From: a bacterium | Lineage (GTDB): Bacteria; Pseudomonadota; Alphaproteobacteria; SP197 | Assembly: GCA_028821455.1 (NCBI GenBank) | Contig: JAPPGE010000003.1 | Coordinates: forward strand, 1-64,000 | DNA length: 64,000 nucleotides | Direction of reading: 5' to 3' | In this document: positions 43,242 to 61,090 of the stretch, in pieces | Numbering within the stretch: the first letter of the stretch is position 1 | Layout of the letters: the number at the start of each line of letters is the position of its first letter | Made by a program: the position numbers and the translations under genes | Notes under the pieces: generated by a model | Databases searched by the model: none | The model's input: only the letters and a program-made list of their open reading frames with translations | Told to the model about the DNA's origin: nothing

Positions 43242-43552
43242 TGGAGGACATATTGGAGACCGCCGAGGCCTGGTCCGGGGACGGCCACCGGGTAGCGCTG
43301 GCCACCGTGACCAGAACATGGGGGTCGAGCCCGCGTCCTGTGGGGAGCCAGCTCGTGGTGCGCCAGGACGGCTCATTCCGGGGCTCCGTGTCCGGCGGCT
43401 GCATCGAGGCTGCTGTCGTCGAAAGTGCGCGCGAGGCGATAGGGGACGGAAGGGTGCGCACCCTGGAGTTTACCGTCTCCAACGAACGTGCCTGGGAAGT
43501 GGGGCTCACCTGCGGAGGTACGATTCAGGTTTTCGTCGCACCACTGATATGA
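43223..43552 (+). CDS. XdhC/CoxI family protein, N-domain only
   Basis: VALATVTRTWGSSPRPVGSQLVVRQDGSFRGSVSGGCIE. Confidence 0.9.
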   Translation: MAESGLMEDILETAEAWSGDGHRVALATVTRTWGSSPRPVGSQLVVRQDGSFRGSVSGGCIEAAVVESAREAIGDGRVRTLEFTVSNERAWEVGLTCGGTIQVFVAPLI

Positions 43553-44232
43553 AGGGCGCCACGCTCACGGCCCTCAACGAGGCTCGAAGGAAACGGGAGG
43601 GCGTCATTCACGCGACCTGGCTTGACAGCGGCGAATCGTGGCTGATCTGCCGCGACGATGCTCTTGATGCCGACCTGGCCCGGGACGTCGGCCAAGCGTT
43701 CCGGCTCGATCAGTCCCGGACGCTGGACGTGGGGGGCCGGCCACTCTTCCTTCATGTCTTCAATCCGCCCGTGCGGCTGATCATCGTCGGCGCCGTTCAT
43801 GTCGCGCAGTCGCTGGCAGTTCTTGCCAGAACAACGGGAATGGACCCGGTGATCGTCGATCCCCGACGCGCCTGGGCTGACGCGCGGCGATTCCCCGATG
43901 TACGCGTGATGGAGGCCTGGCCGGACGATGCACTGGCACGGCTGAAACCGGACCACCGCACGGCCGTGGCGGTGCTGACCCACGACCCCCGCATCGATGA
44001 CCCGGCGCTGATCGCCGCGCTCGATTCGCCGGCCTTCTACATCGGCGCCCTGGGCAGCCGGCGCAGCCATGCCAGGCGCCTGGAACGTCTTGCGGACGAG
44101 GGGCTTGACGGTCTTGCCATGGCGCGGATTCACGGCCCCGTCGGTCTCGACATCGGGGCGCGCTCGGCAGAGGAGATCGCACTTTCGATCATGGCGGAAG
44201 TCGTCGCCGCCCGGAACGGAAAACTGCAATGA
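43549..44232 (+). CDS. XdhC family protein, Rossmann domain only
   Basis: RLIIVGAVHVAQSLAVLARTTGMDPVIVDPR; AALDSPAFYIGALGSRRSHARRLERL; overlaps preceding stop (ATGA). Confidence 0.88.
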   Translation: MKGATLTALNEARRKREGVIHATWLDSGESWLICRDDALDADLARDVGQAFRLDQSRTLDVGGRPLFLHVFNPPVRLIIVGAVHVAQSLAVLARTTGMDPVIVDPRRAWADARRFPDVRVMEAWPDDALARLKPDHRTAVAVLTHDPRIDDPALIAALDSPAFYIGALGSRRSHARRLERLADEGLDGLAMARIHGPVGLDIGARSAEEIALSIMAEVVAARNGKLQ

Positions 44233-45854
44233 AGTTCGCAGACATGCCGGTGCGTGACGCTCTGGGCGGCATTCTTGCCCATAGTGTCACGATTGATGGG
44301 CGTTCCGTGAGAAAGGGGCGCCGTCTCGACGAGGCGCTTGTCAGCGAGTTTCTGGCAGCCGGTGTCACCTCGCTCTTCGTCGCCATGCCCGAGACCGGAG
44401 ATGTCCTGGAAGATGAAGCAGCAACCAGGATGGCACGTGCCCTGGCGGGGTCCCATCTCCTGGTGCAGCCCGCCTCAAGGGGCCGGGTCGACATTGTCGC
44501 CCGACAGGCAGGCCTTGTGACGGTCGACACCGTTGCGCTCGAGGCCGTGAACGGTGTCGATGAAGCGGTGACGGTTGCCACGTTGCCCGGATTCGAGCCG
44601 GTGGGTGAGGGTGAGAGAGTGGCGACCATCAAGATCATTCCCTTCGCCGTTCCAGCGACCACCGTTTCCACCTGCATCGGCCTGTTGGAGACCCCGGCAC
44701 TCGCAGTCGCCCCCTTCAGCGCCTGGCGCACGGGCCTTGTCATGTCCACCTCGCCGGCGGTGAAGTCCCGGGTTCTCGACCGCACCGTGAGTGTAGTGAC
44801 TGCGAGAATCGAGGGTTTCGGACTAATGCTTGGCGACAGCGTCAGAACCCCCCACCGGACTCCGGACCTCGCGGACACCATCACCCGCATGGCCACGAGC
44901 CACGACGTCGTTCTCGTCTACGGCGCCTCTGCCATCTCGGACCGCAGGGATGTCATCCCGGCCGCGGTCGAGGCCGCGGGGGGTGTGGTCGATCACCTCG
45001 GCATGCCGGTCGATCCGGGCAATCTGCTGCTTCTCGCCCATATCGGCAGCACCCGTGTTCTCGGTCTTCCGGGGTGTGCCAGGTCGCCGCAACCCAACGG
45101 ACTCGATCTCGTTCTGGGGCGGCTCGCTGCAGGTATCCACGTGACCGGCGCAGACATACAGGCCATGGGTGTCGGCGGTCTCCTCAAGGGGCGGCCTTCG
45201 GGTGTCCTTCCCGTGGCGGGAAGCCGCAAGGAGATGCCGGCCGCGATCGTCCTGGCGGCTGGCCGCAGCCGGCGCATGGGCGGGCGCAACAAGCTCCTGA
45301 TGACGATCGATGGTGTGCCGATGGTCCGTCACGTGGTGAATGCGCTTCTTTCGGCCGGAATTGCGGCCATTCGGGTCGTGACCGGCCATCAGGCCTCCGC
45401 CGTGCGTGCGGCTCTGGCCGGCTGTCCCGTCTCGTTTGTCGACAACAGCGAGCACGAAGCGGGGCTCAGCACGTCACTGAAGGCGGGACTCGATGCGCTC
45501 CCCGCCTCCTGCGGCGCGGCACTCGTCTGCCTGGGCGACATGCCGGCTGTCACCGGACCGGCGCTGCGTTCCCTTGTCCGTGCATGGCAGGGTTCGAAAG
45601 CAAAGGCGATCGTCGTGCCGACGTGGAATGGCCGCCGTGGCAATCCCGTCCTGTGGGACAGCAGCTTCTTCCAGGCGATGCGCAGGGTGACGGGCGACGC
45701 CGGCGCCAGGCACCTGATCGGCGAGTATGGGGACTACGTCATAGAAGTCGCGATGGACGACGGAGCCGTTCTGGTGGATATCGACACGCCGGAGGACGCG
45801 AGCAGTCTCGTCATGGCCGACGGCGAGGCAGATCGGGGGAAGCGCGAACGATGA
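44229..45854 (+). CDS. Molybdopterin-binding domain protein fused to MobA-like/MocA nucleotidyltransferase
   Basis: MoeA/CinA-like N-half (VLVYGASAISDRRDVIPAAVEAAGG); C-half AAIVLAAGRSRRMGGRNKLLMTIDGVPMVRHVV. Confidence 0.88.
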   Translation: MKFADMPVRDALGGILAHSVTIDGRSVRKGRRLDEALVSEFLAAGVTSLFVAMPETGDVLEDEAATRMARALAGSHLLVQPASRGRVDIVARQAGLVTVDTVALEAVNGVDEAVTVATLPGFEPVGEGERVATIKIIPFAVPATTVSTCIGLLETPALAVAPFSAWRTGLVMSTSPAVKSRVLDRTVSVVTARIEGFGLMLGDSVRTPHRTPDLADTITRMATSHDVVLVYGASAISDRRDVIPAAVEAAGGVVDHLGMPVDPGNLLLLAHIGSTRVLGLPGCARSPQPNGLDLVLGRLAAGIHVTGADIQAMGVGGLLKGRPSGVLPVAGSRKEMPAAIVLAAGRSRRMGGRNKLLMTIDGVPMVRHVVNALLSAGIAAIRVVTGHQASAVRAALAGCPVSFVDNSEHEAGLSTSLKAGLDALPASCGAALVCLGDMPAVTGPALRSLVRAWQGSKAKAIVVPTWNGRRGNPVLWDSSFFQAMRRVTGDAGARHLIGEYGDYVIEVAMDDGAVLVDIDTPEDASSLVMADGEADRGKRER

Positions 45855-47080
45855 GCGTGACGATCGACTCCATCAACCAGGCCTCACGCGTGATCGCAGG
45901 GCATGTCGTCAGGACGCCCTGTGTCCATTCGCGCACGTTGTCGACAATGAGCGGCGCCGATGTGTTCGTGAAGTTCGAGAATCACCAGTTCACGGCATCC
46001 TTCAAGGACCGCGGCGCCCTGGTGAAGATCGCGTCTCTCGCGGACGAGGAACGCTCCCGCGGCGTCATCGCGATGTCAGCGGGCAATCATGCCCAGGCCG
46101 TAGCCTACCATGCCCAGCGCCTGGGCATTCCGGCGACCATCGTCATGCCCGAGGGAGCGCCAGTGGTGAAGGTCAAGAACACCGAGCGCTTTGGCGCCCG
46201 GGTCATCCTGACCGGCGAAACCATCGACGATGCGGCTGTGTCCGCACATCTCATGGCGGCCGACGAGAATCTCGTCTTTGTCCATCCCTATCATGATGAT
46301 CACGTCATGGCAGGGCAGGGAACCCTTGCCCTCGAGATGCTCGAGGATGCACCGGACCTCGATGTCATCATCGTCCCGATCGGTGGCGGGGGGCTGATCG
46401 GCGGCATCGCCATTGCCGCCAGGGCCGTCCGTCCGGAGGTGGAGATCGTCGGTGTCGAAGCCGAGATGTTCCCGTCGATGTATCAGCAGCTCCAGGGACT
46501 GGAGGTGAAGGCGGGAGGCCGCACCATCGCCGACGGCATTGCCGTGAAGACGCCCGGAAGAAATGCCGTTCCGATTGTCCGGGATCTCGTGTCGGACATT
46601 GTCCTGGTGAGCGAAGGCCAGCTTGAACACGCCGTCCAGACCTATCTGGAAATCGAGAAGACGGTGGCGGAAGGCGGAGGGGCTGCGTCTCTTGCCTGCC
46701 TTCTCGCCCGGCCCGAACGCTTCCGCGGGCGCAAGGTGGGCCTTGTCCTGTCGGGAGGCAACATCGACAGCCGGGTGCTGTCGATGGTGATCGAGCACGG
46801 TCTCGTGCGAGACGGCCGCATGGTCCGTCTCGGCCTGGAGATTCCCGATGCACCGGGTGTGTTGGGCAGGGTGTCCGCCATCATCGGCGAAACCGGAGCG
46901 AACATCATCGAGGTGCATCACCAGAGGGCGTTCTCCAATCTCTCGGTCAAACTTGCCGACCTCGATATCGTCCTTGAAACCCTCGACCGGGATCACATCG
47001 GACGGATTGCGGGGCGTCTGCGGGAGGCCGGCTTCCGCGTCCAGCCCGTCGAACCCGTCTCCGGCTCGAGAACGGTCTGA
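45851..47080 (+). CDS. Threonine ammonia-lyase (PLP) with C-terminal ACT domain
   Basis: ENHQFTASFKDRGALVKI; SAGNHAQAVAYHAQRLGIPATIVMPEGAP; GGGGLIGGIAIAA; C-terminal ACT-like DAPGVLGRVSAIIGETGANIIEVHHQR. Confidence 0.92.
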   Translation: MSVTIDSINQASRVIAGHVVRTPCVHSRTLSTMSGADVFVKFENHQFTASFKDRGALVKIASLADEERSRGVIAMSAGNHAQAVAYHAQRLGIPATIVMPEGAPVVKVKNTERFGARVILTGETIDDAAVSAHLMAADENLVFVHPYHDDHVMAGQGTLALEMLEDAPDLDVIIVPIGGGGLIGGIAIAARAVRPEVEIVGVEAEMFPSMYQQLQGLEVKAGGRTIADGIAVKTPGRNAVPIVRDLVSDIVLVSEGQLEHAVQTYLEIEKTVAEGGGAASLACLLARPERFRGRKVGLVLSGGNIDSRVLSMVIEHGLVRDGRMVRLGLEIPDAPGVLGRVSAIIGETGANIIEVHHQRAFSNLSVKLADLDIVLETLDRDHIGRIAGRLREAGFRVQPVEPVSGSRTV

Positions 47081-47168
47081 CACCGTGGGCGGCCGCTATG
47101 CGCCGGCCGGGGAATCGGCTATGTGTCTCCAGGCCAAGGGGGGTGTCTGACGTTGAAGGTCGTGTGCC

Positions 47169-47915
47169 ATGAGTCGTGGTAGGGATCCCGTGCGGCGCAA
47201 GGTGATCTGTGTCGTTCACGGCGAATGGTCGACCACCGGTCGCATCGGTCGAATCCTTCGCGAAGGAGGCCACGAGGAGGTGCGCTGCTGCCTGAAGACC
47301 GGTGACGTTCTTCCCCAGAACTTCCACGATATCGCCGGCGCCATCATCTTCGGCGGCCCGATGAGCGCCAATGATGACGGCACGTTGGACTTCATCGCCG
47401 CCGAACTGCGCTGGATCGACCGGGTCCTCGAGGCGGGCACGCCGTTCTTCGGGGTCTGCCTTGGAGCCCAGATGCTGGCCCGCAGCCTCGGAGCTGCTGT
47501 GAAACCGCATGAGGACGGCTGGCACGAGATCGGGTTCACGCAGCTGGTTCCCACGGAGTCCGGACGGTCGGTGCTGGGTGATTTGCGCCATGTCTATCAG
47601 TGGCACGGGGAGGGTTTCGATCTTCCCGGGGGATGCGAACTTCTCGCCACCAGTGTGACAGAGCACTTCCCCAACCAGATGTATTCCTGCGGCCCGAGCG
47701 TCTACGGCGTGCAGTTTCATCCGGAATGCACCATCGACATGATCGGCGAGTGGATGAAGGAGGGGGCGGAGGAACTCGACGAACGGGGCGCCCAACAGCC
47801 TGAAGAACAGCTGGCCGACGCCGGCAGGTACGATCACCTGGTCGATGCGTGGCTGCCGGGCTTCTTTGAACGCTGGCTCGGCGCCGCCGACTCCGGGAGG
47901 ATGGCGGCCGAATAA
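47169..47915 (+). CDS. Class I glutamine amidotransferase
   Basis: GAIIFGGPMSAND; PFFGVCLGAQMLARSLGA; GVQFHPE. Confidence 0.9.
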   Translation: MSRGRDPVRRKVICVVHGEWSTTGRIGRILREGGHEEVRCCLKTGDVLPQNFHDIAGAIIFGGPMSANDDGTLDFIAAELRWIDRVLEAGTPFFGVCLGAQMLARSLGAAVKPHEDGWHEIGFTQLVPTESGRSVLGDLRHVYQWHGEGFDLPGGCELLATSVTEHFPNQMYSCGPSVYGVQFHPECTIDMIGEWMKEGAEELDERGAQQPEEQLADAGRYDHLVDAWLPGFFERWLGAADSGRMAAE

Positions 47916-47919
47916 GGTG

Positions 47920-48522
47920 TCAGGCGCGTTCCCTGAGAGCCGCTTCCAGGAGGACGAGCCGGTCGTTGCCCCAGAACATCTGCTCGCCGAGGAAGAAAGT
48001 TGGAACTCCGAACGCCCCGCGCCTGGCGGCTTCCTTGACTCTCGCCTCCATGTCATGGAGGAGGTTGTCGCTCTCCATGTCGCTCCGGAATCTCCCGACA
48101 TCGAGGCCGCCGAAGTCAGCCGCCTGTTCGAAGTCCTCCTGGACCAGCCTTTCTCCGGGTGTGATGAAGATGAGCGACATCACCGCTCGGGAGAAGAACT
48201 CCGCGGCGCCCTGGCGTTCGGCGGCCAGACAGGCGAGCGCGGCCAACAGGGGATCGAACGCCAGGCGGTCGACCGGTTCCAGGTAGTCGATCCCGTAATG
48301 ACGGGCCCACGCCGCGGCGTCCTGCTTGCGGTAGTCCCAGTCGTACTGGCCGGCCGCGCCCTCGAAGGGGTCCTTGCGACCGGCTGAGATGAGCGGACCG
48401 CTCTGCAACGGCAGCCAGCGGAAGCGGCAACCCGTCTCGCGCTCGATGCGCCCCAGCTGCGTGGAAGCAAGATAGGAGTAGCGGCTGCCCGGACCGAAGT
48501 AGAAATCGACCTCTTGGGTCAT
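47920..48522 (-). CDS. DsbA-family / 2-hydroxychromene-2-carboxylate isomerase-like protein
   Basis: VDFYFGPGSRYSYLASTQL...FRWLPLQSGPL...AARRGAFGVPTFFLGEQMFWGNDRL. Start 48522 preferred over listed 49356. Confidence 0.88.
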   Translation of the reverse strand: MTQEVDFYFGPGSRYSYLASTQLGRIERETGCRFRWLPLQSGPLISAGRKDPFEGAAGQYDWDYRKQDAAAWARHYGIDYLEPVDRLAFDPLLAALACLAAERQGAAEFFSRAVMSLIFITPGERLVQEDFEQAADFGGLDVGRFRSDMESDNLLHDMEARVKEAARRGAFGVPTFFLGEQMFWGNDRLVLLEAALRERA

Positions 48523-49670
48523 TCGGCGGCCTGGGGAACGGGCAGGGGTCCGCCCTCCATGGCCTGCATGACCAGCCTGTGGAAATGGTGCACCGCGTGC
48601 TCGCTGATGTGGCTGCGGCCGCTGTCGACGATGAACCGGCCACGGTCGTAGCCGCGCGATTTCAGGCCTGCGTGGACACTCTCGCAAAGGGCGATGTCCT
48701 CGGGCTGAAGCACGTCGACGACGTAGTCGATCGCCGCCTCGGACTGTTGGGTCAGTTCTCCGCCCAGCGAGTGCCAGTGCAGATGCTCGACGCAGCCTTC
48801 GGGTCCGTCGGGGAGCATCTGGAGAGTCATGAGATTGGGCTCGCCCGGCATCAGCCAGATCGTCAGGTTCGGCCACACGAAGTAGCCGGCGTAGCCGAAG
48901 TCGACGTCGCCGGTTTCGAAATCGTAGGCCGTGCTCCTGTTCGAGCGCGGCTTGTCCGACGTCTGGGCCGACCAGTACTGGTGCGTGCGATTGCGATAGG
49001 TGGGCATCTCGACCATGTCGACGAAGGCCGGATGCGCCGGTTCGCAGTGGTAACACTCCTGGAAGTTGTCGATGACCACCTTCCAGTTGGCCTTCAGCGC
49101 GAAATCCCTTTGACACGCCGGCTCGAGAGACGCGGCCCGGGGCATCCAGCGCAGGATGTCGTCCTCGAGCCCGGCGTACTGTTCGCCGAACGGGAGGGCT
49201 TCGGCGTCGAGATTGACGAAGACGAGGCCGAGCATCGTGTCGACCCTGACCTGTTTCAGCGAAAACGCCGACTTGTCGAAATCGCGGACGTTCTCGCAGC
49301 CGCGCGCCGTCCTCAGGGACCCGTCGAGATTGTAGGCCCAGGCATGATAGGGGCACGTCACGACGGGCCCCAGAGTGCCGCTGCCCTTGAGGACGCGGTG
49401 AGCCCGGTGCTGGCAGACATTGTAAAAGCAGCGCAGGACGCCATCACGCCCCCTGACGAGAGCGAGGCTCTCGTCGGCGATCTCCACCACCCGATAGCTG
49501 CCAGGTGCCTTGAGCGTGCTTTCGTGTCCGGCAAAGAGCCATGAGCGGGCGAAGATTCGCTCCTTTTCCTCCTCGAAGATCAACGGATCGGTGTAGTAGC
49601 GCGAGGCCATCGTGAAGGAACGGGAGGGGTCGTCGTGGAGACCTCCTGGAAGAGCGTCATAGGGCGTCAT
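48519..49670 (-). CDS. Rieske aromatic ring-hydroxylating oxygenase alpha subunit (choline monooxygenase-like)
   Basis: CQHRAHRVLKGSG...CPYHAWAYNLDG Rieske motif; NFQECYHCEPAHPAF iron site. Start MTPYDALPGG at 49670. Confidence 0.93.
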   Translation of the reverse strand: MTPYDALPGGLHDDPSRSFTMASRYYTDPLIFEEEKERIFARSWLFAGHESTLKAPGSYRVVEIADESLALVRGRDGVLRCFYNVCQHRAHRVLKGSGTLGPVVTCPYHAWAYNLDGSLRTARGCENVRDFDKSAFSLKQVRVDTMLGLVFVNLDAEALPFGEQYAGLEDDILRWMPRAASLEPACQRDFALKANWKVVIDNFQECYHCEPAHPAFVDMVEMPTYRNRTHQYWSAQTSDKPRSNRSTAYDFETGDVDFGYAGYFVWPNLTIWLMPGEPNLMTLQMLPDGPEGCVEHLHWHSLGGELTQQSEAAIDYVVDVLQPEDIALCESVHAGLKSRGYDRGRFIVDSGRSHISEHAVHHFHRLVMQAMEGGPLPVPQAAE

Positions 49671-49869
49671 CGTGGCAGTCCGCTGACCATGCTTCGTCGC
49701 CGTACCATATGAATGCCTCCCCATACAATCAATCGAGTTGTGTCGCACAGACATTCAAGATTTTCTCAATGATTGAACGCTCAATGCCCTGTGCGCTCTC
49801 GACGCCGCAGGCAGACACCTGAATCTCGTCAGGGCCGCCTTGGCAAGCCTGGCAGACGGCTTGACACGG

Positions 49870-50080
49870 GGACGATCACATCCGGATCATCCGGCCGAGG
49901 GGGCGGCGACCATGGCATTGAAAAGGCCGTGGGTGGAAGCTGACCTTCTGCTTGTGATCGATGTCCTGAACGACCTTTGTCACGGCGACGCGCCTGATGT
50001 CCCTCGGGAGAGACGAGGTGACTGCCGTCGTCGACCGGATGGTGCCACGCGCTCTCCATCTGCGTCGGCTTCCAGCTGGC
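49870..50080 (+). pseudogene. Frameshifted 5' remnant of a nicotinamidase gene paralogous to 59172-59813
   Basis: ATGGCATTGAAAAGGCCGTGGGTGGAAGCTGACCTTCTGCTTGTGATCGATGTCCTGAACGACCTTTGTCACGG aligns with ATGGCATTGACGAGGCCGCGGGCGGAAGCTGACCTTCTGCTTGTCATCGACGTCCAGAACGACTTTTGTCCCGG; upstream GCTTGACA...CCGGATCATC also shared. Confidence 0.92.
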
Positions 50081-50225
50081 GCACCAGGCTCAGGGCCGCC
50101 GGCGGTCACCGCCGCTTCGCAACGGGTCGGCACGGGATCCGGTGCGCCGGATGTGAGGTCCAGCGCCTTGTCGAGTCAGGCGGGGACGCGTTTCATGGAG
50201 TGCCGGCACCACGCGGATACGCGTG

Positions 50226-51458
50226 TCAGGCGGTTTCCGCTGCGGTGAGGTCGAAGCCGCGCTCCTGGACGAAACTCCCGAATTCCTCCTGTGTCATGAG
50301 GGCAAACCCGGAGCGCCGGGACATGTGCTCGCGTACCGCCGACACGATCTCCGCGACGGTTTGCCCGTTCGCGGACCTGCCGAGGAGCGAGAGGTTGTAG
50401 AGGACCGTGAATTCGTTGCAGCGCCGACCGATCGACAGGTGGTGGCGGTTGCCGACCAGCCGGGGCGGGTAGACCAGGGCCTCCTCGAACCTCCCCTCCT
50501 GGTGGAGCTCCCAGTAGACCTGCTGAATTTCCTCGGTCTCGGGAATTGCGAAGGCCGAATCGCCCACGACCGGCTTCTGCCGGGGGATCGCGAGGCCGAT
50601 CGAACGGGAAACGAGTTCCGAGAGCTCCTTGAGGGACGAAAGGTCGATGCCGGTGGAAACGCCGATGTGCATCTCGGCCGCCACGGCGAATTCCTCGAGC
50701 GGCACAAGGCCCGTGAATTCCCCCACACCGTTCACCGTGGTCTGGATGGTCGAGGCGCCCGCCAGGACGGCCGCCATGGCGTTGACGACGGCCATGGAGG
50801 AATGGTTGTGCAAATGAACCTGCAACGGACGGTCGGTCCATGCGGCGACGAGCCCGACGAGGTGGTGGAGGCCCCATGGCGAGATCGTGCCGAGGGAGTC
50901 GCCGATGGTGAACTCGTCGCAATGCGGCGTGAGTTCCCTGATCAACTGTTCCAGGAATTCCGGACGTGTGCGCGTGGCGTCCATGCACATCAGGCACGTG
51001 TGCATGCCGTGCGCCCTTGCATGATCGGTCAGGCGTCGGGCGAGGTCGATGATGTCGGCGCCGGACTTGCCCTGAGGCACAAGGGCGTCGTTGACTCCCA
51101 CCAGAATGTCGATGTCGGAGAGGCCGGTTTGCCGGGCGATGTCGATCTCTTGAGCTGTCTTGACGAAGGAACTCAGGCGGACGGGGAGGTCGAGGGCGAC
51201 GATCTTCTCCGCGCAGCGGATATCGTCGTCGGACGGCAGGGGCGAGTTGCCGAGAATGGACATGCGGCCGACACCGGCGCCGGCGAGTTTGCGGGCAATG
51301 GCGATGCGGTCGGCTTCGCTCAGGTATGCTCCTGCCATTTCCTCGCCGTCGCCCTCGAGCGTGAGGTCGTGGATGGCGACGTTCTTCGGCCTGTCGGGCT
51401 TCTGCAACTGTGGAGCGAGCCAGTTGTAGGGACTGGCGTAGGGTGTGAGCGTGGACAT
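50226..51458 (-). CDS. LeuA/homocitrate synthase-type (HMGL-like) protein
   Basis: NVAIHDLTLEGDGEEM at TIM-barrel start; PLQVHLHNHSSMAVVNAMAAVLAGASTIQTTVNGVGEFTGLVPLEEFAVA. Confidence 0.85.
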   Translation of the reverse strand: MSTLTPYASPYNWLAPQLQKPDRPKNVAIHDLTLEGDGEEMAGAYLSEADRIAIARKLAGAGVGRMSILGNSPLPSDDDIRCAEKIVALDLPVRLSSFVKTAQEIDIARQTGLSDIDILVGVNDALVPQGKSGADIIDLARRLTDHARAHGMHTCLMCMDATRTRPEFLEQLIRELTPHCDEFTIGDSLGTISPWGLHHLVGLVAAWTDRPLQVHLHNHSSMAVVNAMAAVLAGASTIQTTVNGVGEFTGLVPLEEFAVAAEMHIGVSTGIDLSSLKELSELVSRSIGLAIPRQKPVVGDSAFAIPETEEIQQVYWELHQEGRFEEALVYPPRLVGNRHHLSIGRRCNEFTVLYNLSLLGRSANGQTVAEIVSAVREHMSRRSGFALMTQEEFGSFVQERGFDLTAAETA

Positions 51459-51494
51459 GATCCGATCTCCCAGGTTTCTGTTCCGCCGGTATCT

Positions 51495-52301
51495 TCAACA
51501 GGAGGCAAACGAGGTGAAGGACGTCCGCTTGAGGTAGCGATCCAGGAACTGCCGGGATCTCTGTTCCCTGGGACTCGAGAGGAAGTCGGCCGGCGCGCCT
51601 TCCTCGATGATCGAGCCTTCGTCCATGAACACGATTCGGTCCGCCGCCTCGCTCGCGAAGCCGATCTCGTGGGTCACCACGATCATGGTCGTGCGCTGCT
51701 CCGCGAGCGCCTGCATGACGTCGAGGACTTCCCCGACGAGCTCCGGATCAAGTGCGCTCGTGGGTTCGTCGAACAGGAGGATTTCAGGCTCCATGGCAAG
51801 GGCGCGGGCGATGGCGACGCGCTGTTGCTGGCCGCCGGAAAGCTTGGCGGGATAGCTTGTCGCCTTGTCCTGCAGTCCGACCCGGTCGAGCAGGACTTCG
51901 GCCCGCTCGCGAGCCTCATTCTTGGAGAGGCCCCGGACGATCATCGGTCCCTCCATGACATTGCCGATCGCCGTCCTGTGAGGCCACAGGTTGAAGGATT
52001 GGAAGACCATGCCGATCCGGCTGCGCTGCCGTCTCAACCGGGCATCGCCCAGCGGCCTCGGGGTGCCGTTGGCATCCCTTTCCATGCCGAGCATTTCATC
52101 ACCGATCCATACCGTTCCCGAGGTCGGCGGCGACAACCAGTTCAGGCAGCGCAACAGGGTGGACTTGCCGGAGCCCGAAGGACCCAGGACGCAGACGACC
52201 TCACCCTTGGCCACCTCGAGGCTGATGTCACTGAGAACCTCGAGATCCCCGAAGGTCTTGACCAGGTGTTCGGCGCGAATGGCGGGCACGTTCTTCGTCA
52301 T
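51495..52301 (-). CDS. Amino-acid-type ABC transporter ATP-binding protein
   Basis: [57 protein letters not shown]. Confidence 0.93.
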
Positions 52302-52311
52302 GGTGGTGTCC

Positions 52312-52971
52312 TCACCTCGCTTCACGGTAACGGGTCACGCGACGTTCCAGGGACCGCATGCCGTTCTCCCACACGAAGAGGATGGTCCAGTAACAGATGG
52401 CGGCAAATGTCCAGAACTCGAACGGGGCATAGGTCCGGGCAACGACCTGCTTGGTCTCGAAGGCGAATTCGTGCACCGAGATGATCGACAGGATTGCCGA
52501 ATCCTTGACGAGGCCGATGGAGATGCCGGTGAGCGGAGGGATGATGAGGCCCAGGGCCTGCGGCACGGTGATCCTGCGCGCCGCCTGCAGGCGGGACATG
52601 CCAACCGAGCGCGCGGCTTCCAGCTGTCCTGAGGGAATGGCATCGATGGCGCCGCGCATGATTTCGGCCATGTAGGGCGAATAGTAGAGCGTCAGGGTGA
52701 GAAGGCCCGCCGCCAGTTCCGAAAGCCTGAGGCCGATGTCCGGGAGAACGAAGTAAATCACGTAGAGCAGCACGAGTATCGGGATGCCCAGGATGATCTC
52801 CGTATAGATGCGAACGATGACGGCGAGCGGCCGGATGCCGGAGCGCTGCATCGCGACCAGGACGGCTCCGGTGACAATGGAAAGCAGGATGCCGGCCGTG
52901 GAGATGATGATGGTGACCTTGAGGCCCTCCAGCAGGAGCGGCGCATACTTCAGAATCTGTTCTAGATCCAT
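52312..52971 (-). CDS. Amino acid ABC transporter permease
   Basis: HisM/GlnP type: [52 protein letters not shown]. Confidence 0.93.
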
Positions 52972-52986
52972 GCCGCGCGTCCTCCC

Positions 52987-53643
52987 TCAGGTGTGGAGCA
53001 GCCGGAAGCGGCGTTCCAGCCACCGGGAGACCTGGGTGAAGGAGAGGGCGATGAGGACGTAGCCGACCGCGATCGGGAGGAAAATTTCGACGGCGCTGAA
53101 CGCTCTTGCCTGGATGACGACGCCTGCGTAGGTGAGTTCGGTCACCGCCACCACGGAAGCAAGCGGTGTCGACTTCAGGACGATCGTGAACTCGCTGGTG
53201 AGAGCCGGCAGGCTGACCACGAACGCCTGCGGCAGGATGACCCGGAACCAGATCTGCCGGGTCGACATACCCATGGCCCGTGCCGCCTCGATCTGTCCCT
53301 CGGGCACATTCTGGACAGCCGCTCTGAGGATTTCCGTCGTATAGGCTCCGCTGTTCAGTCCGATCGCCACGGCCGCGGCGAGGAAGGCCTGTCCCTTGAT
53401 GCCCAGCAGGGGCAGACCGAAGAAGACGACGAAGAGCTGCACCAGAAGGGGCGTGCCGCGCATGATGCTGACATAGGTCCGGCTGAGCCAGTAGCCGCCC
53501 GGGATCTTCGACAGCTGGAGCATCACCGAAATCGTGCCGAACAGCAGACTCAGAATGACACTGCAGACGGTCAGTTCCACAGTGACGATCGCTGCCGATG
53601 CAAGAATGGGTACGGATTCGTAGAAAAGGTCGAGATTGAACAT
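52987..53643 (-). CDS. Amino acid ABC transporter permease
   Basis: VAIGLNSGAYTTEILRAAVQNVPEGQIEAARAMGMSTRQIWFRVILPQAF; start MFNLDLFYES at 53643. Confidence 0.92.
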   Translation of the reverse strand: MFNLDLFYESVPILASAAIVTVELTVCSVILSLLFGTISVMLQLSKIPGGYWLSRTYVSIMRGTPLLVQLFVVFFGLPLLGIKGQAFLAAAVAIGLNSGAYTTEILRAAVQNVPEGQIEAARAMGMSTRQIWFRVILPQAFVVSLPALTSEFTIVLKSTPLASVVAVTELTYAGVVIQARAFSAVEIFLPIAVGYVLIALSFTQVSRWLERRFRLLHT

Positions 53644-53749
53644 GCGCTTCCAGGCACCGGGAAGGGATGCGCAGGGGCCGCGGCATGCCGCCACCCCTGC
53701 GCCGGTTGCTTTGCGGTCCGGTCAGATGATCAGCCGACCGGACAGGGAT

Positions 53750-54601
53750 CTAGCCTTCCGGAATGAAATTCTCTTCGGGAAGATTGTCGATCCGGAAGCC
53801 GAAGTGTTTCTCCTGAAGCTCGCCCATCTTGCCGCTGGCCTTGAGTTTCTTGAGGGCATCGTTGAGCGCCGCGTTGAGCTTCGGATCGTCCTTGTTGGTA
53901 CCCCAGCCGATCACTGCCTTCGTGCCGATCTCACCGACGATTTCCATCTCGATGTCCGGGCGGCTGGCCATGGCCTTGTGGAGAACGACGATATCGTCGA
54001 CGACGCAATCGACCCTTCCGTCGACCAGGGCGGCGATGGTCTGCTCCACGGTGTCGAAACTCAGGAGCTCCACCTCGTCCATGCCCGCGGCCGACAGTTC
54101 CTCGTTCATCGATTGCATCATCTGCTCGGGTTGCGTCGTCTGCTTGACGGCACACCTGTTGCCGGAAAGGTCATTGATGTTGCTGTTCGTGACATTGGCG
54201 TTGCCCTTGGTTGTCAGTATCGCGTTCACGGTCGACGTGATGGGTATCGTGAAGTCGATTTTCTGGGCACGCTCGGCAGTGATGTTCAGCGCCGTGGCGG
54301 TGAAATCGAACGATCCGGCGATGAGGCCGGGAATGACGCCGCTGAAGGCCATGACCTGGTAGTCGATCTCGACACCCCAATCCTCGGCAATGGCTTCGAG
54401 CAGCTCGGGATCGTAGCCGATGATATTGCCCTCCGAATCAGTGTATTCGAAGGGTGCGAAGGTCGGATCGATGGCAACGATCATGCTGCCTCGCTCCATG
54501 ATGTCGTCGAGGGCATCGGCCTTGGCAGGCGCCAGTCCGGCGTTCATGCCGAGTGCGATGACGGCAGCAGCCGTCGACGTGATGATGTATCTTGTGTCCA
54601 T
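53750..54601 (-). CDS. Amino-acid-type periplasmic solute-binding protein (SBP_bac_3)
   Basis: Signal peptide ITSTAAAVIALGMNAGLAPAKA; GSMIVAIDPTFAPFEYTDSEGNIIGYDPELLEAIAEDWGVE. Confidence 0.93.
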   Translation of the reverse strand: MDTRYIITSTAAAVIALGMNAGLAPAKADALDDIMERGSMIVAIDPTFAPFEYTDSEGNIIGYDPELLEAIAEDWGVEIDYQVMAFSGVIPGLIAGSFDFTATALNITAERAQKIDFTIPITSTVNAILTTKGNANVTNSNINDLSGNRCAVKQTTQPEQMMQSMNEELSAAGMDEVELLSFDTVEQTIAALVDGRVDCVVDDIVVLHKAMASRPDIEMEIVGEIGTKAVIGWGTNKDDPKLNAALNDALKKLKASGKMGELQEKHFGFRIDNLPEENFIPEG

Positions 54602-54666
54602 GGGAATTTCTCCTTTGGTCCATTGAATGTTCGTTACGTTGTGCCAGTGATTCCCGTGCTCGCGCG

Positions 54667-55704
54667 TCACCCCCCTTCCTTGCTGGGTGTGCCGAACAGC
54701 CGAAGGCGGTTCACGCCACCGTCTGGAATCATGTTGAAGCGGACATGGGTCACTGTTCCGAGGACGGCGACTTCATCCTCGAAGGTGTGGACCCGGTCCA
54801 TTTCGAGTTTCTGCTCGGGCAGCAGATCCTGCCAGAACAGTGACGATGCCACGGCCGACGACTCGTCGGCCGCATGCGCGGCGGCCTGAATTGAACATCG
54901 GTCGGGATAGTTGCCCTTGAAGTGGGTGGTGTCGACAACAATTTTTCTGACCGTTCCCGCACAGGCGAGGCGAAACAGCGCCCATTCGTTGCCGGGTTCG
55001 CGCCGTCTGCGGGTTTCCCATCCCTCGGCCATGGTGGCGCCGACACCGGGATAGAGGATGTTCGCCGGCGATCCGTAGTGCTGGTCGCTGCAGTCCACGA
55101 GCCAGCCACCGTGTTCAATCGCCGCAAGGTCCATCTCTGCCGCGCCGTCCCGGTCGCGAACGATCTCGCCGTAGACGCGCAGGCGCGCGACACCCCCGTC
55201 GGGATAGATGTTGAGGCGCACATGCGTCCACAGACCGTCGTTGTCGATCGGCCGGACGTGGTGAGCGTTCCCCTCCAGGGCGACCGGTGGCAGGACCTCG
55301 GTCCAGGGGGTGGCATCATCCGGGTCGCCGTTGCAGCGGCAGGCGTCGATGGAGGCGGACGGCGGAAAGTTGCCGGTGAAGTGACTCGTATCGATATCGA
55401 AGCCCCTGATTCGTCCTGTCGCCGAAAGCCTGACGATACAGTAGTCGTGTCCCGTCGTTCTCCGGCGCCTGGTCTCCCATCCGTCCATCCACTTGCCGTG
55501 ATCGTCGTACCTGTCCGGAATGAAGCGCGCGGGACGCGGTTCGAGCATGCGCTCCTTCGGCGCGAACCACTCGTTGTTCGCGAACACCGCAACAGCACCC
55601 AGGCGGGGGTCGGCGAGGTTGGGCCAACGCTCCGCAAGCGTGTTCTCGCTGGCGGGGACGAACTCGCCGAGTGTCTCGTCGAAGATCAGACCGGCGCCGG
55701 TCAT
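54667..55704 (-). CDS. alc: Allantoicase
   Basis: [36 protein letters not shown] twice (internal repeat), [20 protein letters not shown]. Confidence 0.95.
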
Positions 55705-56228
55705 CGAAGGTCCGTGTCGAGCGTCACCACGATCCCCTCGTCATCGATGCTCTCCTCTTCGTAGTCCTGATCGAAGACCTCGCCTCTTGCCGAGCGGTCC
55801 TCAACCAGAAAATCGGCGGCATGGAGCGCGATGAGGGAGTGATGCCATGTACCGGGGTGGAGGGTGACGCCCTGGCCGTGCCGCGCCAGGAACCCGCGCA
55901 TGTTGCCGGTCGCGGGACGGGCATCGCGCTGCGCCACGACGATCAGAAACTCCGAACGGTCGAGAGGCACGAAGGCCTGACTGGAGACGGGATGACGTTC
56001 CATGAGACGCAGCCGGAAGGGAAGCATCGCGGGTCTGAGCCCCTGGAAGATGCTGATCACGGGCCTGCCATCCTCGGCCGTCACGTCGACCCTGGCGAGG
56101 TCGTGTTGATGCAGGACCTCGCCATTGTTGATTTCGAGGCACGAGCGCGGATCCCGTTCGATGACATCGCCGAAGGCGCGGCAGACCGGTCTGGTCAGAG
56201 GTTCGACCCGGATCTCCCTTATCGACAT
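55701..56228 (-). CDS. allA: Ureidoglycolate lyase
   Basis: [59 protein letters not shown]; overlaps alc. Confidence 0.93.
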
Positions 56229-56406
56229 GCTGCCGTCCCGATTCGCGTGCGGTGCAACATTCAATCGCTCAATTCTCGCGGCGGTCAAGCGTCCAATGTC
56301 CCGGTCCGGGCACCCTTCGGCCGCCGCCTTACGGATAGTTCCGGGCCGTTGCGGCATGATGAGGACCGTTTGCCGGCATCTCGAGGGGTTTGCCCATACG
56401 CTTGTC

Positions 56407-56586
56407 ATGCCTGCGATGGAGCCGATCGGTCTTTCGGTCGACGACGTCGGGATCACGCTCGATGTGAATGGCGTCAGGCGCCAGTCGGGGAATCGCAACC
56501 AGATGATCTGGAAGACGGTGGAAGCGATCTCGCTTCTTTCGGGTCTCCTTGAGCTCCGGTCCGGCGACATCCTGTTCAACGGGACG
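56407..56586 (+). pseudogene. 3' remnant of a fumarylacetoacetate hydrolase (FAH) family gene
   Basis: VGITLDVNGVRRQSGNRNQMIWKTVEAISLLSGLLELRSGDILFNGT, the C-terminal FAH signature, with no upstream catalytic body. Confidence 0.8.
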
Positions 56587-56766
56587 CAGGCGGCCTCTCA
56601 TGTAGGGATCGACTGACAGATAGATGGTGCGAACCAGCACCTCGCCGGGGCCCGGCACCGGCATCGGCGATTCGACGAGATCGACGTGCCCGGAAGCCGG
56701 CGCGCCCGGCGGATAGTCCTTCAGGAAAAGTGCCCGATTGATCCTGGTGTGACGGCGTCTTGGTCA
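56587..56766 (-). pseudogene. 5' remnant of an NADP-dependent MDR oxidoreductase (CurA/YncB type)
   Basis: Minus strand reads RINRALFLKDYPPGAPASGHVDLVESPMPVPGPGEVLVRTIYLSVDPYMRGRL, then stops matching. Confidence 0.85.
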
Positions 56767-56894
56767 TGGCATTGCGTCCTGCGGTCGGCGCGTTGCTGTC
56801 AACAATTCCATTGAATGCGGCCCTCCCCGAGCGTATCTCTTCAGTGCTGGTCTAACCGCACTCTTGGCTACGCTCATGACGACATGTGTCAAAT

Positions 56895-57150
56895 GCACCG
56901 ATCCTCCCATGCAGCTTGCAGAAGCCGTCTGGGTCGATTCCGGGCGCATGAGTGGCGTGCCCTGTTTCCGCGGTACGCGTCTACCGGTCCAGCAGCCTTT
57001 TTGACTGGATTGAAGACGGCGTCCCCCTGGATGAGTTCCTCCGCGACTTTCAGATCGATCGCAGGGCGGCGGCCGCCGTCCTGCGTGCCGGAGCGTCCGC
57101 CGTTTGCGCCGCCGCAGCCGACAATCCCGACTGCGCTGTCTCCTCCTGAC
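56895..57150 (+). pseudogene. DUF433 antitoxin with a single-base frame change near 56990-57004
   Basis: Frame 1 MQLAEAVWVDSGRMSGVPCFRGTRLPVQQPF-stop; frame 2 SLFDWIEDGVPLDEFLRDFQIDRRAAAAVL. Together they form a canonical DUF433 protein. Confidence 0.75.
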
Positions 57151-57158
57151 ACCCGGGC

Positions 57159-57497
57159 ATGAAGGTTCTGCTTGACGTCGGCGTGTCACCGCGCCTGCGC
57201 CATCCGCTCCGGCAGCAGGTCGGCGATGCCCTGGTCGAATCCGCGGAGTTCCACAACTGGCGTTCACTCCGTGACCAGGAACTCTTGACCGCGGCCGAAC
57301 GCTGCGGTTTCACAACTCTCACAACGACCGATAAGCGAATGGCGATGGAACAGCCGCATTCGCCCGTCGTCATCATTGCGGACGACGATAACACCCTTGC
57401 CGGGCTCTTGGCTGCCGCCTCCAGCATCGCTGAGGCCGTTCGGTCGACACGTCCCGGCGAGAAGCGCCTCGTGCCGGTCGCACGATTCCGCCGATGA
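57159..57497 (+). CDS. DUF5615 PIN-like toxin
   Basis: MKVLLDVGVSPRLRHPLRQQ...DQELLTAAERCGFTTLTTTDKRM, next to DUF433. Confidence 0.75.
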   Translation: MKVLLDVGVSPRLRHPLRQQVGDALVESAEFHNWRSLRDQELLTAAERCGFTTLTTTDKRMAMEQPHSPVVIIADDDNTLAGLLAAASSIAEAVRSTRPGEKRLVPVARFRR

Positions 57498-57762
57498 TCC
57501 GTACTCCTCGGCCGGCCGCGAAGGAGGACTCGATGTCGGGTCGGGGCTGCGACGATACGCGGGCAGGCTACGACGTCGTCTTGATGGCTGCGGTCTCCGG
57601 ACTCGTGTCAATGCCGGCGATCGACTCGGGAACTGCGAATCGGCCCGATCACCTGAACGCCGGTGCCAACGTCGTGATCGCGGCTTCGACGTTCCACGAC
57701 GGCGACTCTAGAGTGGCTGACATCAACCAGGTGATGACCCCGGATCATTTTCGGAGCGAGCG

Positions 57763-58974
57763 GTGACAGATCACGCTTCGCCAGCGGGTGTCGGCGCAGG
57801 ACGGCGCCTTCCGATCCTGGCTTTCTGCGCTGGTCACATGGCCGTTGACTGGCCTCACGGCGCGCTCTGGATCCTGATTCCCGCGATCGGCATTGCCATG
57901 GATCTTTCGCCATCCGACCTCGGACTGATGGTGAGCCTTACGGCAATCGGGGGCGCACTGAGCCTGATTCCGGCCGGGATGCTCAGCGATCACACGCGGC
58001 GCCGGGGGACGCTCTTCGTGAGCACATTTGTCTGGATCGTGGTGGGCTACAGCCTTGCCAGCATGGCGCCGGACTTCTGGTCCCTGACCCTGTTGCTCGC
58101 CGTCGCCGGGATGGGCAGCTCGGCCTGGCATCCACTGGCCACAGGCACGCTGACGCAGATACTGCCGGCGCAGCGGGCGCGGGTGCTGGGGATCCACGCC
58201 ATGGGCGGCACCCTTGCCGAGGTCTTCGCGCCCGTGCTGACGGGCGCCCTGCTGGTCTACGTCGACTGGCGGCAGGGCCTGCTCCTTGCCGTCGTTCCCG
58301 CGGTTGCCCTTGGTTTCGTCTTCCTGGCACTGCGCGGCCGGCTTACGGTCCCCGTCGCGTCAGATGCGCGCATGGTGGATCTCAAGGACCTCGCGAAGCG
58401 CTGGCTCAGTCGAGTCGGCCTCCTGCTCGTGGCGATGATCAGCATCTACAACATGGCCATCATGGCCGTGCTGGCCATGGCAACACTCTTCATCGTCAAC
58501 GATCTCGGCCTGTCCGAATTCTGGGCCGGCATCGCATTCGCTGCGATGATCCTGGCCGGCGCCGTGCTGCAACCGGTGATGGGGCATCTTTCCGACACGC
58601 TGGGCCGGCGCAGGATCTTTGCCTTCTCGCTGCTGGCGGCCGCGCCCTTTGGCTTTCTCATGCCGCTGGTCGAGGCACCCTGGCTCGCCCTTGCCTTTCT
58701 GATCATCATGATCGGGGCCTTCTACGGCGTGCGCTCTGTCGTGCTTGCTTCGGCGCTGGATTTCGCCGGCAAACGCGAGGGAACGACGCTGGCACTGGCC
58801 TTCGTGCTGATGGACGGTGTCGGTGCGCTGGGCGCCTTCCTGGGCGGCTACGTCGGCGACTTTGACCTCGCCTATGCCTTCGTGCTTGCCTCGGTGTTCG
58901 CTGTGGTGGCAGCGATCCTCTCGGCCGCCTCCACTCTTGCCTCCCCGCGCATACGAAGGAAGCCGGCAGCCTGA
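57763..58974 (+). CDS. MFS transporter
   Basis: Twelve-TM protein with GMLSDHTRRRGTLF and GHLSDTLGRRRIFAFSLL loops. Confidence 0.9.
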   Translation: MTDHASPAGVGAGRRLPILAFCAGHMAVDWPHGALWILIPAIGIAMDLSPSDLGLMVSLTAIGGALSLIPAGMLSDHTRRRGTLFVSTFVWIVVGYSLASMAPDFWSLTLLLAVAGMGSSAWHPLATGTLTQILPAQRARVLGIHAMGGTLAEVFAPVLTGALLVYVDWRQGLLLAVVPAVALGFVFLALRGRLTVPVASDARMVDLKDLAKRWLSRVGLLLVAMISIYNMAIMAVLAMATLFIVNDLGLSEFWAGIAFAAMILAGAVLQPVMGHLSDTLGRRRIFAFSLLAAAPFGFLMPLVEAPWLALAFLIIMIGAFYGVRSVVLASALDFAGKREGTTLALAFVLMDGVGALGAFLGGYVGDFDLAYAFVLASVFAVVAAILSAASTLASPRIRRKPAA

Positions 58975-58980
58975 TCAAGC

Positions 58981-59087
58981 CCAGGGAGGGTCGCGCCGTA
59001 CCGCTCGTCTCCGGCAAAGGGTCGAGAGCAGGCGAAGATGCGCCCCCTTTGCCCCTCGAAGATCAGGAGATTGTCGTCGTACAACAT
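58981..59087 (-). pseudogene. 5' remnant of a Rieske oxygenase gene paralogous to 48519-49670
   Basis: MLYDDNLLIFEGQRGRIFACSRPFAGDER versus RYYTDPLIFEEEKERIFARSWLFAGHES; DNA TCCGGCAAAG...GGCGAAGAT..CGC...CCTCGAAGATCA conserved. Confidence 0.9.
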
Positions 59088-59171
59088 GATCGTCCCGGCA
59101 TTGACAGGCTTGGTGGACAGCTTGACATCGGGGCCATCAAGTCCGGATCATCGGGTGATGAGGCTGCAACG

Positions 59172-59813
59172 ATGGCATTGACGAGGCCGCGGGCGGAAGC
59201 TGACCTTCTGCTTGTCATCGACGTCCAGAACGACTTTTGTCCCGGCGGCGCGCTTGGTGTCCCCGGGGGCGATGAGGTGGTCGCCGTCATCAACCGGCTG
59301 GCACCGCACTTTCAACATTGCGTCGTCACCCAGGACTGGCATCCGGCGGACCATCTTTCCTTTGCCAGCAACCACGCCGGGCGCCAGCCCTTCGAGACGG
59401 TCACGCTCGATTATGGTGAACAGGTGCTGTGGCCCGATCACTGCGTTCAGGGAAGTCACGGTGCGTTCCTCCACCGCGATCTCGACTGGCGCGGAGCCGA
59501 CCTGGTTCTGCGCAAGGGGTTCCGCCGCGCCATCGATTCCTATTCGGCGTTCCAGGAGAACGACAAGGCAACGCCCACTGGTCTTGCAGGTTACCTGCGG
59601 GAAAGGGGCTTCACGCGTCTCTTCATCGCCGGTCTGGCGACGGACTTCTGCGTTGCCTGGACGGCACTTGACGCGGTGACGGAAGGCTTTGGCGCGGTCC
59701 TCGTTGAGGACGCCTGCCGGGCCATCGATCTTGACGGTTCACTGGCCGCTGCCATGTCGGCCATGACGGATGCCGGGGTCGCGATCACCCGCTCCACTGC
59801 GATCACCGGCTGA
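59172..59813 (+). CDS. pncA: Nicotinamidase
   Basis: LLLVIDVQNDFCPGGALGVPGGDEVV, VVTQDWHPADHLSFASNH, GLATDFCVAWTALDA. Confidence 0.93.
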   Translation: MALTRPRAEADLLLVIDVQNDFCPGGALGVPGGDEVVAVINRLAPHFQHCVVTQDWHPADHLSFASNHAGRQPFETVTLDYGEQVLWPDHCVQGSHGAFLHRDLDWRGADLVLRKGFRRAIDSYSAFQENDKATPTGLAGYLRERGFTRLFIAGLATDFCVAWTALDAVTEGFGAVLVEDACRAIDLDGSLAAAMSAMTDAGVAITRSTAITG

Positions 59814-59815
59814 AT

Positions 59816-61090
59816 TCAGCGGACTGCCACAGAGCGCAAGCCTGTATCCTGCCAAAAGTCCGTTGCGGCGCCGACATGGTCCGCGAGATGGCGTGTCAGA
59901 TCGCACGCATCGTCCCCCGCCCCATGAATGAAACTCGACTTGCGGCGACGCAGGAATGTCAGCCCGATACGGTAGAGACCCGGGGCGACCACGCCCCCGT
60001 CGTGACGCAGGCGCCCCTTGTGATCGAATACCGGAAGATCGAGCCACGAATGGTCCGCCTCGAATCCGGTGGTCCAGATCACGCTTCGGATGCCTTCCCG
60101 GGCGAAATCGAGCACCAGGTCCGGTGACTCTGGGAGGCGCGTGGGGGCCGGACGTTCCGGTGCCTCGAGCACGCCATCGATCCCGTGGCAGGTCGCCCAC
60201 TCGTCGAAGGTGTCGAGAAGACGGCCCTGCTTGAGGTCCGCCAGAGCGCACTTGTTGGCCAGTGAGCCGGAGAACTGGGCCCGTCCGTCCGCGATGCCGG
60301 CAAGGCGTCCCACCAGCCGGACGCCGCCCGTCGTCAGCGCGTTGAGGTCGAGTGTGCTCCTGGGCTCGCTGCCGACGAGCTGCGGTGACGGCACGCGGCG
60401 GGCTCGCGCAATATCCTCGACTTCATCCCAGCGTTCGTCGTGAAGGCCCGAGCGCTCGAACCACCACAAGATGTCCCGTCCCCGGTACAGTCTCGGCATG
60501 CGCACGTGCTCGCCCACGGCGAGAGTGACCGGGCGTCCCGAGCGCTGCACCTCTTCCGCGATCTGGACGCCGGTAGCCGACGCGCCGACCACCAGCACGC
60601 CCCCTGGAGGCAGGCTGTCAGGGGAGGCGTAGTCGAAGGGTGTCAGCGACTCGACGTCGACGGGCAGGGAGGGAGCGAAGGACGGAAGCCGGGCGATGTT
60701 GAAGCCGCCCGAGGCGATGACCACAGCGGAACACGTGATGGAGGCCTTGTCGGTGGTCACCTGATAGCCGTCAGCCGATGCCGTTACCGACTCGACGTTC
60801 GTGCGCGTCCACAGCTCCGGATTGACGAGACGCGCGTAGCGTTCCAGGAAGGCGACGACTTCCGCCATGTGCATGTAACCGTCAGGTTCATCACCGTCGT
60901 AGGCCAGTCCCGGCAGGCGGGTCAGCCAGTTCGGCGTGAGCAGCCGGAGCGATTCCCAGCGCTCAGTGCGCCAGGAATGGCCCACCTCGCCGCGCTCGAT
61001 GACCACGTGGTCGATACCGAGCGCGGCGAGGCAGTGACTTGTCGCAAGACCGGTATGGCCGGCGCCTATGACGACAGCGGTCGTGCGCAT
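59816..61090 (-). CDS. Flavin-containing monooxygenase-like FAD/NAD(P) oxidoreductase (CzcO-like)
   Basis: AVVIGAGHTGLATSHCLAALGIDHVVIERGEVGHSWRTERWESLRLLTPNW; VLVVGASATGVQIAEEVQRSG. Confidence 0.88.
   Translation of the reverse strand: MRTTAVVIGAGHTGLATSHCLAALGIDHVVIERGEVGHSWRTERWESLRLLTPNWLTRLPGLAYDGDEPDGYMHMAEVVAFLERYARLVNPELWTRTNVESVTASADGYQVTTDKASITCSAVVIASGGFNIARLPSFAPSLPVDVESLTPFDYASPDSLPPGGVLVVGASATGVQIAEEVQRSGRPVTLAVGEHVRMPRLYRGRDILWWFERSGLHDERWDEVEDIARARRVPSPQLVGSEPRSTLDLNALTTGGVRLVGRLAGIADGRAQFSGSLANKCALADLKQGRLLDTFDEWATCHGIDGVLEAPERPAPTRLPESPDLVLDFAREGIRSVIWTTGFEADHSWLDLPVFDHKGRLRHDGGVVAPGLYRIGLTFLRRRKSSFIHGAGDDACDLTRHLADHVGAATDFWQDTGLRSVAVR

Follow-up and report, generated by a model that had tools for sequence, protein, structure and literature searches.

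The locus described here lies in the window, the whole stretch of 64,000 nucleotides that was analysed (contig JAPPGE010000003.1 of assembly GCA_028821455.1; Alphaproteobacteria, SP197), and its features are compiled in Table 1. Copy A of a divergent region consists of a whole gene for a Rieske oxygenase and a cut, frameshifted start of pncA, and copy B of a whole pncA and a fragment of the Rieske gene; truncated genes are hereafter marked with a prime. The region between the copies does contain the ureide cluster to which an earlier note on this DNA had drawn attention, but also an intact MFS transporter gene and a HisF remnant, which that note had left out.

Table 1. Features of the duplicated Rieske/pncA locus and of the region between the two copies (window coordinates)
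Feature	Position	Strand	Basis or remark
Rieske [2Fe-2S] ring-hydroxylating oxygenase alpha subunit, intact, GbcA-like	48519..49754	-	Pfam PF00355, PF00848
GcvA-type LysR 5' fragment (upstream region and ~23-27 codons), spacer A only	49725..49839	+	81% to G000:C48:28100-28224
Promoter-like site TTGACA-18-GATCAT, copy A	49861..49890	+	sigma-70-like, 10 of 12
pncA 5' fragment, truncated and frameshifted, ~56 codons, copy A	49912..50080	+	77% to 59098-59340; alignment
ACGGCGAC direct repeat, 8 bases, left end of segment absent from sister genomes	49982..49989	+	sister alignments break here
Ureide cluster: HMGL-like, ABC ATPase, two permeases, solute-binding protein, allantoicase, ureidoglycolate lyase	50226..56240	-	
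HisF C-terminal remnant, about residues 173-251, ~200 bases	57536..57762	+	tblastn 56-58%; directly 5' of MFS
ACGGCGAC direct repeat, 8 bases, right end of segment absent from sister genomes	57699..57706	+	sister alignments resume here
MFS transporter gene, intact	57763..58974	+	orthologue between hisF and hisA in congeners
HisA N-terminus, short trace	58972..59002	+	alignment; long form in G004 at L160 10065-10262
Rieske 5'-region fragment, ~90 bases, copy B	59003..59091	-	82% over core; longer in G004
Promoter-like site TTGACA-18-GATCAT, copy B	59122..59151	+	sequence scan
pncA, intact, bifunctional nicotinamidase/pyrazinamidase	59172..59813	+	NF008623

The likely true start of the Rieske gene is at position 49670. 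Its product is an oxygenase alpha subunit; against the best NCBIfam profile, that of GbcA (glycine betaine monooxygenase, NF058607), it scored 157 bits, below the cutoff of 670. The intact pncA passed NF008623 with 205 bits (cutoff 174). Across the four genomes of the subclade, which comprises the window's own genome (G000) and its sister genomes G001, G004 and G007, dN/dS ranged within 0.12-0.18 for Rieske, 0.11-0.16 for MFS and 0.10-0.14 for pncA; all three genes are under selection. It should be added that about 42 Rieske oxygenase matches were counted in the single 4.4 Mb genome G000, and that the flavoprotein adjoining pncA (59816-61090) is MSMEG_0569 family-like (332 bits, below the cutoff of 498) with high-identity matches in this subclade only.

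Comparison of the 46-64 kb region with the window by BLASTN returned two pieces in register and in direct orientation: 49837-50080 against 59098-59340 (76.8% identity, E 3.6e-44), covering the spacer and the start of pncA, and 49522-49582 against 59005-59065 (82%, E 5.7e-10), in the Rieske block. These matches bear out what the earlier note had described, namely a divergent region present twice, homologous through the spacer, and, in copy A, an intact Rieske gene facing a frameshifted nicotinamidase start; the alignment places a +1 frameshift in this fragment and the match ends after about 56 codons. For copy B, the nicotinamidase is intact as was stated, but the Rieske remnant does not represent the first ~35 codons: it is an internal N-terminal block of roughly codons 20-50, counted from the start at 49670, the first codons being deleted. 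The Rieske start region of copy B is retained solely in sister genome G004, whose fragment, with start and spacer, is the longest. The conserved spacer words noted earlier proved to be the sigma-70-like promoter-like site found in both copies; that of copy A is the single such site in 49500-50250, where shuffled sequence yields 0.1, and the copy B region likewise has one.

A search with the Rieske gene retrieved 80 loci, eleven of them close (at least 69% identity), including those of G001, G004 and G007. Both copies occur at orthologous positions in these three further assemblies and are thus neither a matter of chance nor an assembly fault. The gene order there, ilvA-GATase-DsbA-Rieske-[pncA']-MFS-[Rieske']-pncA-FMO, then OsmC (the contig of G007 stops within Rieske), matches that of the window without the ureide cluster: in all three the pncA fragment lies between Rieske and MFS, the Rieske fragment between MFS and pncA, and the MFS gene is the sole gene between the copies. 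The matches are therefore real and unrelated insertions can be dismissed. Although all subclade genomes are fragmented assemblies, junctions and gene order are common to four independent ones, which refutes an assembly or binning artefact as well as unrelated insertions into the spacer and leaves either with a negligible probability.

In G000 alone, a stretch of 7.7 kb with the ureide cluster separates pncA' from HisF'. The cluster is absent from the locus in the three sister genomes, and no match to its HMGL-like gene was found in any of 60 relatives at E<=1e-100. The ureide operon was consequently rejected as the cause of the splitting, and the view that it had separated an ancestral pair has to be given up. 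There are two allantoicase/ureidoglycolate lyase loci in G000, that of the window (50226-56240) and another at G000:C48:24460-25937; the window's version comes with HMGL-like and ABC genes and, among the 60 relatives, is restricted to G000. The allantoicases of G004 and G007 are located elsewhere and resemble the second copy on G000:C48, with the ureL-allC arrangement in each.

In a tree of the four genomes, built on 247 shared columns, copies A and copies B formed two separate clades with support of 95-98, a separation explained by one duplication that predated the split of these genomes. Within one genome, copies A and B differ by 18-33%. Other markers conflict: the alignment shows a shorter pncA'/HisF' junction common to G001, G004 and G007, and copy B deletions common to G000, G001 and G007, while the his tree places G000, and the MFS tree G004, outside the other subclade genomes. 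Such conflicting trees and deletions require that these relatives recombined or that deletion at the short repeat took place more than once. Over the region corresponding to 43000-61000 of the window, DsbA, GATase, Rieske and MFS of G004 are unusually divergent, its neighbouring genes are not, and the gene trees conflict; this pattern along the locus suggests that recombination among relatives contributed to it.

The origin of the MFS gene is to be sought elsewhere. In other congeners Rieske, pncA and MFS occupy three separate loci, and the MFS gene is a member of the operon hisG-hisB-hisH-hisF-MFS-hisA near groEL, which rules out its origin in place. In the window, the HisF match covers 57536-57739 (residues 173-244), and in G004, tblastn detected HisA residues 1-73 directly after the MFS gene. 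With HisF and HisA remnants on its two sides, the insert between the copies comes from a his operon and carries one whole gene, the transporter. In nucleotide trees the remnants group with hisF and hisA of congeners, apart from the subclade's own genes, across branches of support 100, their placement among congeners being poorly supported. A microhomology, GCCTTGAG, at the HisA'/Rieske' junction of G004 is at most suggestive.

All four subclade genomes possess their own adjacent hisF and hisA with no MFS gene between them. The resident hisGBHFA shares 63-77% of amino acids with congeners, whereas congeners share 71-84% with another genus, and no such excess divergence was seen in groEL or MFS of the subclade; the his genes are hence more divergent than both neighbouring and vertically inherited genes. 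On these comparisons, a foreign, MFS-free his operon probably replaced the native one, and the transporter would be a survivor of the displaced operon. The foreign-looking his operon is located at G000:C26:34741-36761 (L190), and two groEL genes flank this region (L190 4-612 and 10244-11875).

At the ACGGCGAC motif of the sister genomes, pncA' runs in frame into the tail of HisF', and the copied promoter-like site, ribosome-binding site and start of pncA lead straight into the MFS gene. The fused frame is 50-51 codons long, is open in three genomes and overlaps the MFS start codon with its end. A functional leader peptide was considered, but dN/dS of the whole leader was 1.3-3.2, without purifying selection at the peptide level, unlike Rieske, MFS and pncA. 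It is plausible that the MFS gene of the sister genomes is driven by the copied pncA promoter; in the window, about 7.8 kb lie between the two.

Outside the subclade, the Rieske gene is divergent from a gene of a LysR-type regulator in seven loci; no such Rieske-facing LysR was found in G008. Its usual neighbours are GATase, ilvA and often a DsbA-like gene, pncA not being among them. In G005, G006, G008, G009 and G010, Rieske and pncA are separate, being located on different contigs or else convergent at a distance of 36-43 kb, so that the intact divergent pair sought in relatives was not met with there. Spacer A of the window also carries a LysR 5' fragment, with 89-93% identity in G001 and G007, and its match in G000 is the start of an intact GcvA-type LysR gene (C48:27251-28180). 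The fragment matches this C48 type, a LysR that is 40% identical to the Rieske-linked one, which leaves its descent from Rieske's own native regulator doubtful. The copying of a LysR promoter and first codons between Rieske and the pncA promoter may have brought an operator to Rieske. The intact LysR gene on C48 adjoins the second allantoicase locus. Our literature search found one close technical parallel, but nothing on a Rieske/nicotinamidase pair.

Direct observation covers the duplicated pieces, their order and flanks in four genomes, the position that MFS holds within the his operon of congeners, and what is left of HisF and HisA. From these we consider it probable that one insertion-duplication placed a his-operon fragment with MFS between Rieske and pncA, with ends inside both genes. 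Rieske and pncA would have become divergent neighbours in the common ancestor of G000 and its three sister genomes, where a fragment of the native his operon (3' end of hisF, complete MFS and 5' end of hisA) would have been inserted while a stretch of about 0.5 kb or more, from inside Rieske via the spacer to inside pncA, was duplicated in direct orientation. The outcome would be full Rieske with truncated pncA at left, and truncated Rieske with full pncA at right; the locus presents just this, direct repeats of the target around an insert, with either target gene complete at one end and truncated at the other. A duplication with its ends inside both genes accounts by itself for a complete and a truncated version of each, and makes reciprocal decay unnecessary. 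The copied pncA promoter would now drive MFS in sister genomes; the subclade's his operon, by then without MFS, was probably replaced by a foreign one, the fragments would have decayed, and G000 alone carries the ureide stretch between pncA' and HisF', which it may have gained or the others may have lost. An insert in the middle points to either copy-and-switch repair or single-crossover, Campbell-type insertion, indistinguishable here, in what we infer to be a single event; as the original state of the insertion is preserved in no genome, this is inseparable from a tandem duplication into which the fragment was inserted later. What weighs somewhat against this explanation is the shortness of some remnants (about 200 bases for HisF, about 90 for the window's Rieske), the conflict of junctions and deletions among the four genomes, and the leader frame without purifying selection.

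A variant of it assumes that foreign or circular DNA with Rieske'-spacer-pncA' and hisF'-MFS-hisA' entered by one chromosomal crossover, yielding the same structure with A and B copies that stem from different lineages. It would account for the end structure, for the 18-33% difference between the copies in the same genome and for remnants closer to congeners than to the subclade's own his genes; we nevertheless hold it to be rather unlikely, as no gene of an integrase, plasmid or phage came to notice close to the junctions and the necessary donor with Rieske' beside pncA' was not found outside the subclade. Far less credit is due to the interpretation of the earlier note, in which duplication of a whole divergent functional unit was followed by the loss of a different partner from each copy. 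Its premise of a duplicated block holds in so far as a single duplication preceded the divergence of the four genomes and a different gene is intact in each copy. The reciprocal loss does not hold, and we regard it as very improbable: in all four genomes the second copies never extend beyond 5' fragments, which led us to reject duplication of the whole unit, though an earlier complete state may have existed. Moreover, the copies flank a his-operon fragment, other congeners have the two genes either unlinked or convergent at a large distance, and Rieske faces LysR in the seven loci, with a LysR 5' fragment in spacer A. The pair is therefore not conserved outside the lineage, and a past partnership of the Rieske enzyme with the amidohydrolase, which the note had proposed, is not indicated.

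The citT/rnk case of the E. coli long-term experiment is reportedly an example of promoter capture by tandem duplication. As in that process, a duplicated upstream region here would set an existing promoter before a gene without one, and border microhomologies are short; unlike such cases, the present arrangement is old and natural, is fixed in four genomes and encloses a his-operon fragment between its copies. Promoter capture by tandem duplication has been described, e.g., in the activation of transferred genes (PMC11111574). The full and truncated target genes on either side of the insert also resemble a Campbell (single-crossover) insertion-duplication, but neither a donor replicon nor an integration gene was seen and what was inserted is part of a chromosomal operon. 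The term xenologous operon displacement in situ appears in PMC1274311. In keeping with such a displacement, the subclade's his genes beside groEL exceed in divergence the other parts of the genome that were sampled; in contrast to it, one passenger gene of the operon that was displaced persists at another site, next to traces of its two former neighbours.

The half-copies are thus best read as the flanks of one old insertion that would have moved a transporter out of the his operon, an ordinary bacterial genome rearrangement. This corrects a tempting inference, as split half-pairs need not signal a lost functional partnership. The locus would offer a readable natural record of a gene that leaves a conserved operon, gains a new upstream region and outlives the replacement of its old operon, and a testable example of the gain and loss of passenger genes by operons. 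More tentatively, and with clear reservations, one may imagine that the passenger transporter was rescued by copying under the nicotinamidase promoter, either shortly ahead of the replacement of the native his operon by a foreign one without the transporter, or because of that replacement. If true, the function of the transporter would have been important enough to be retained and rewired at the displacement of the operon.
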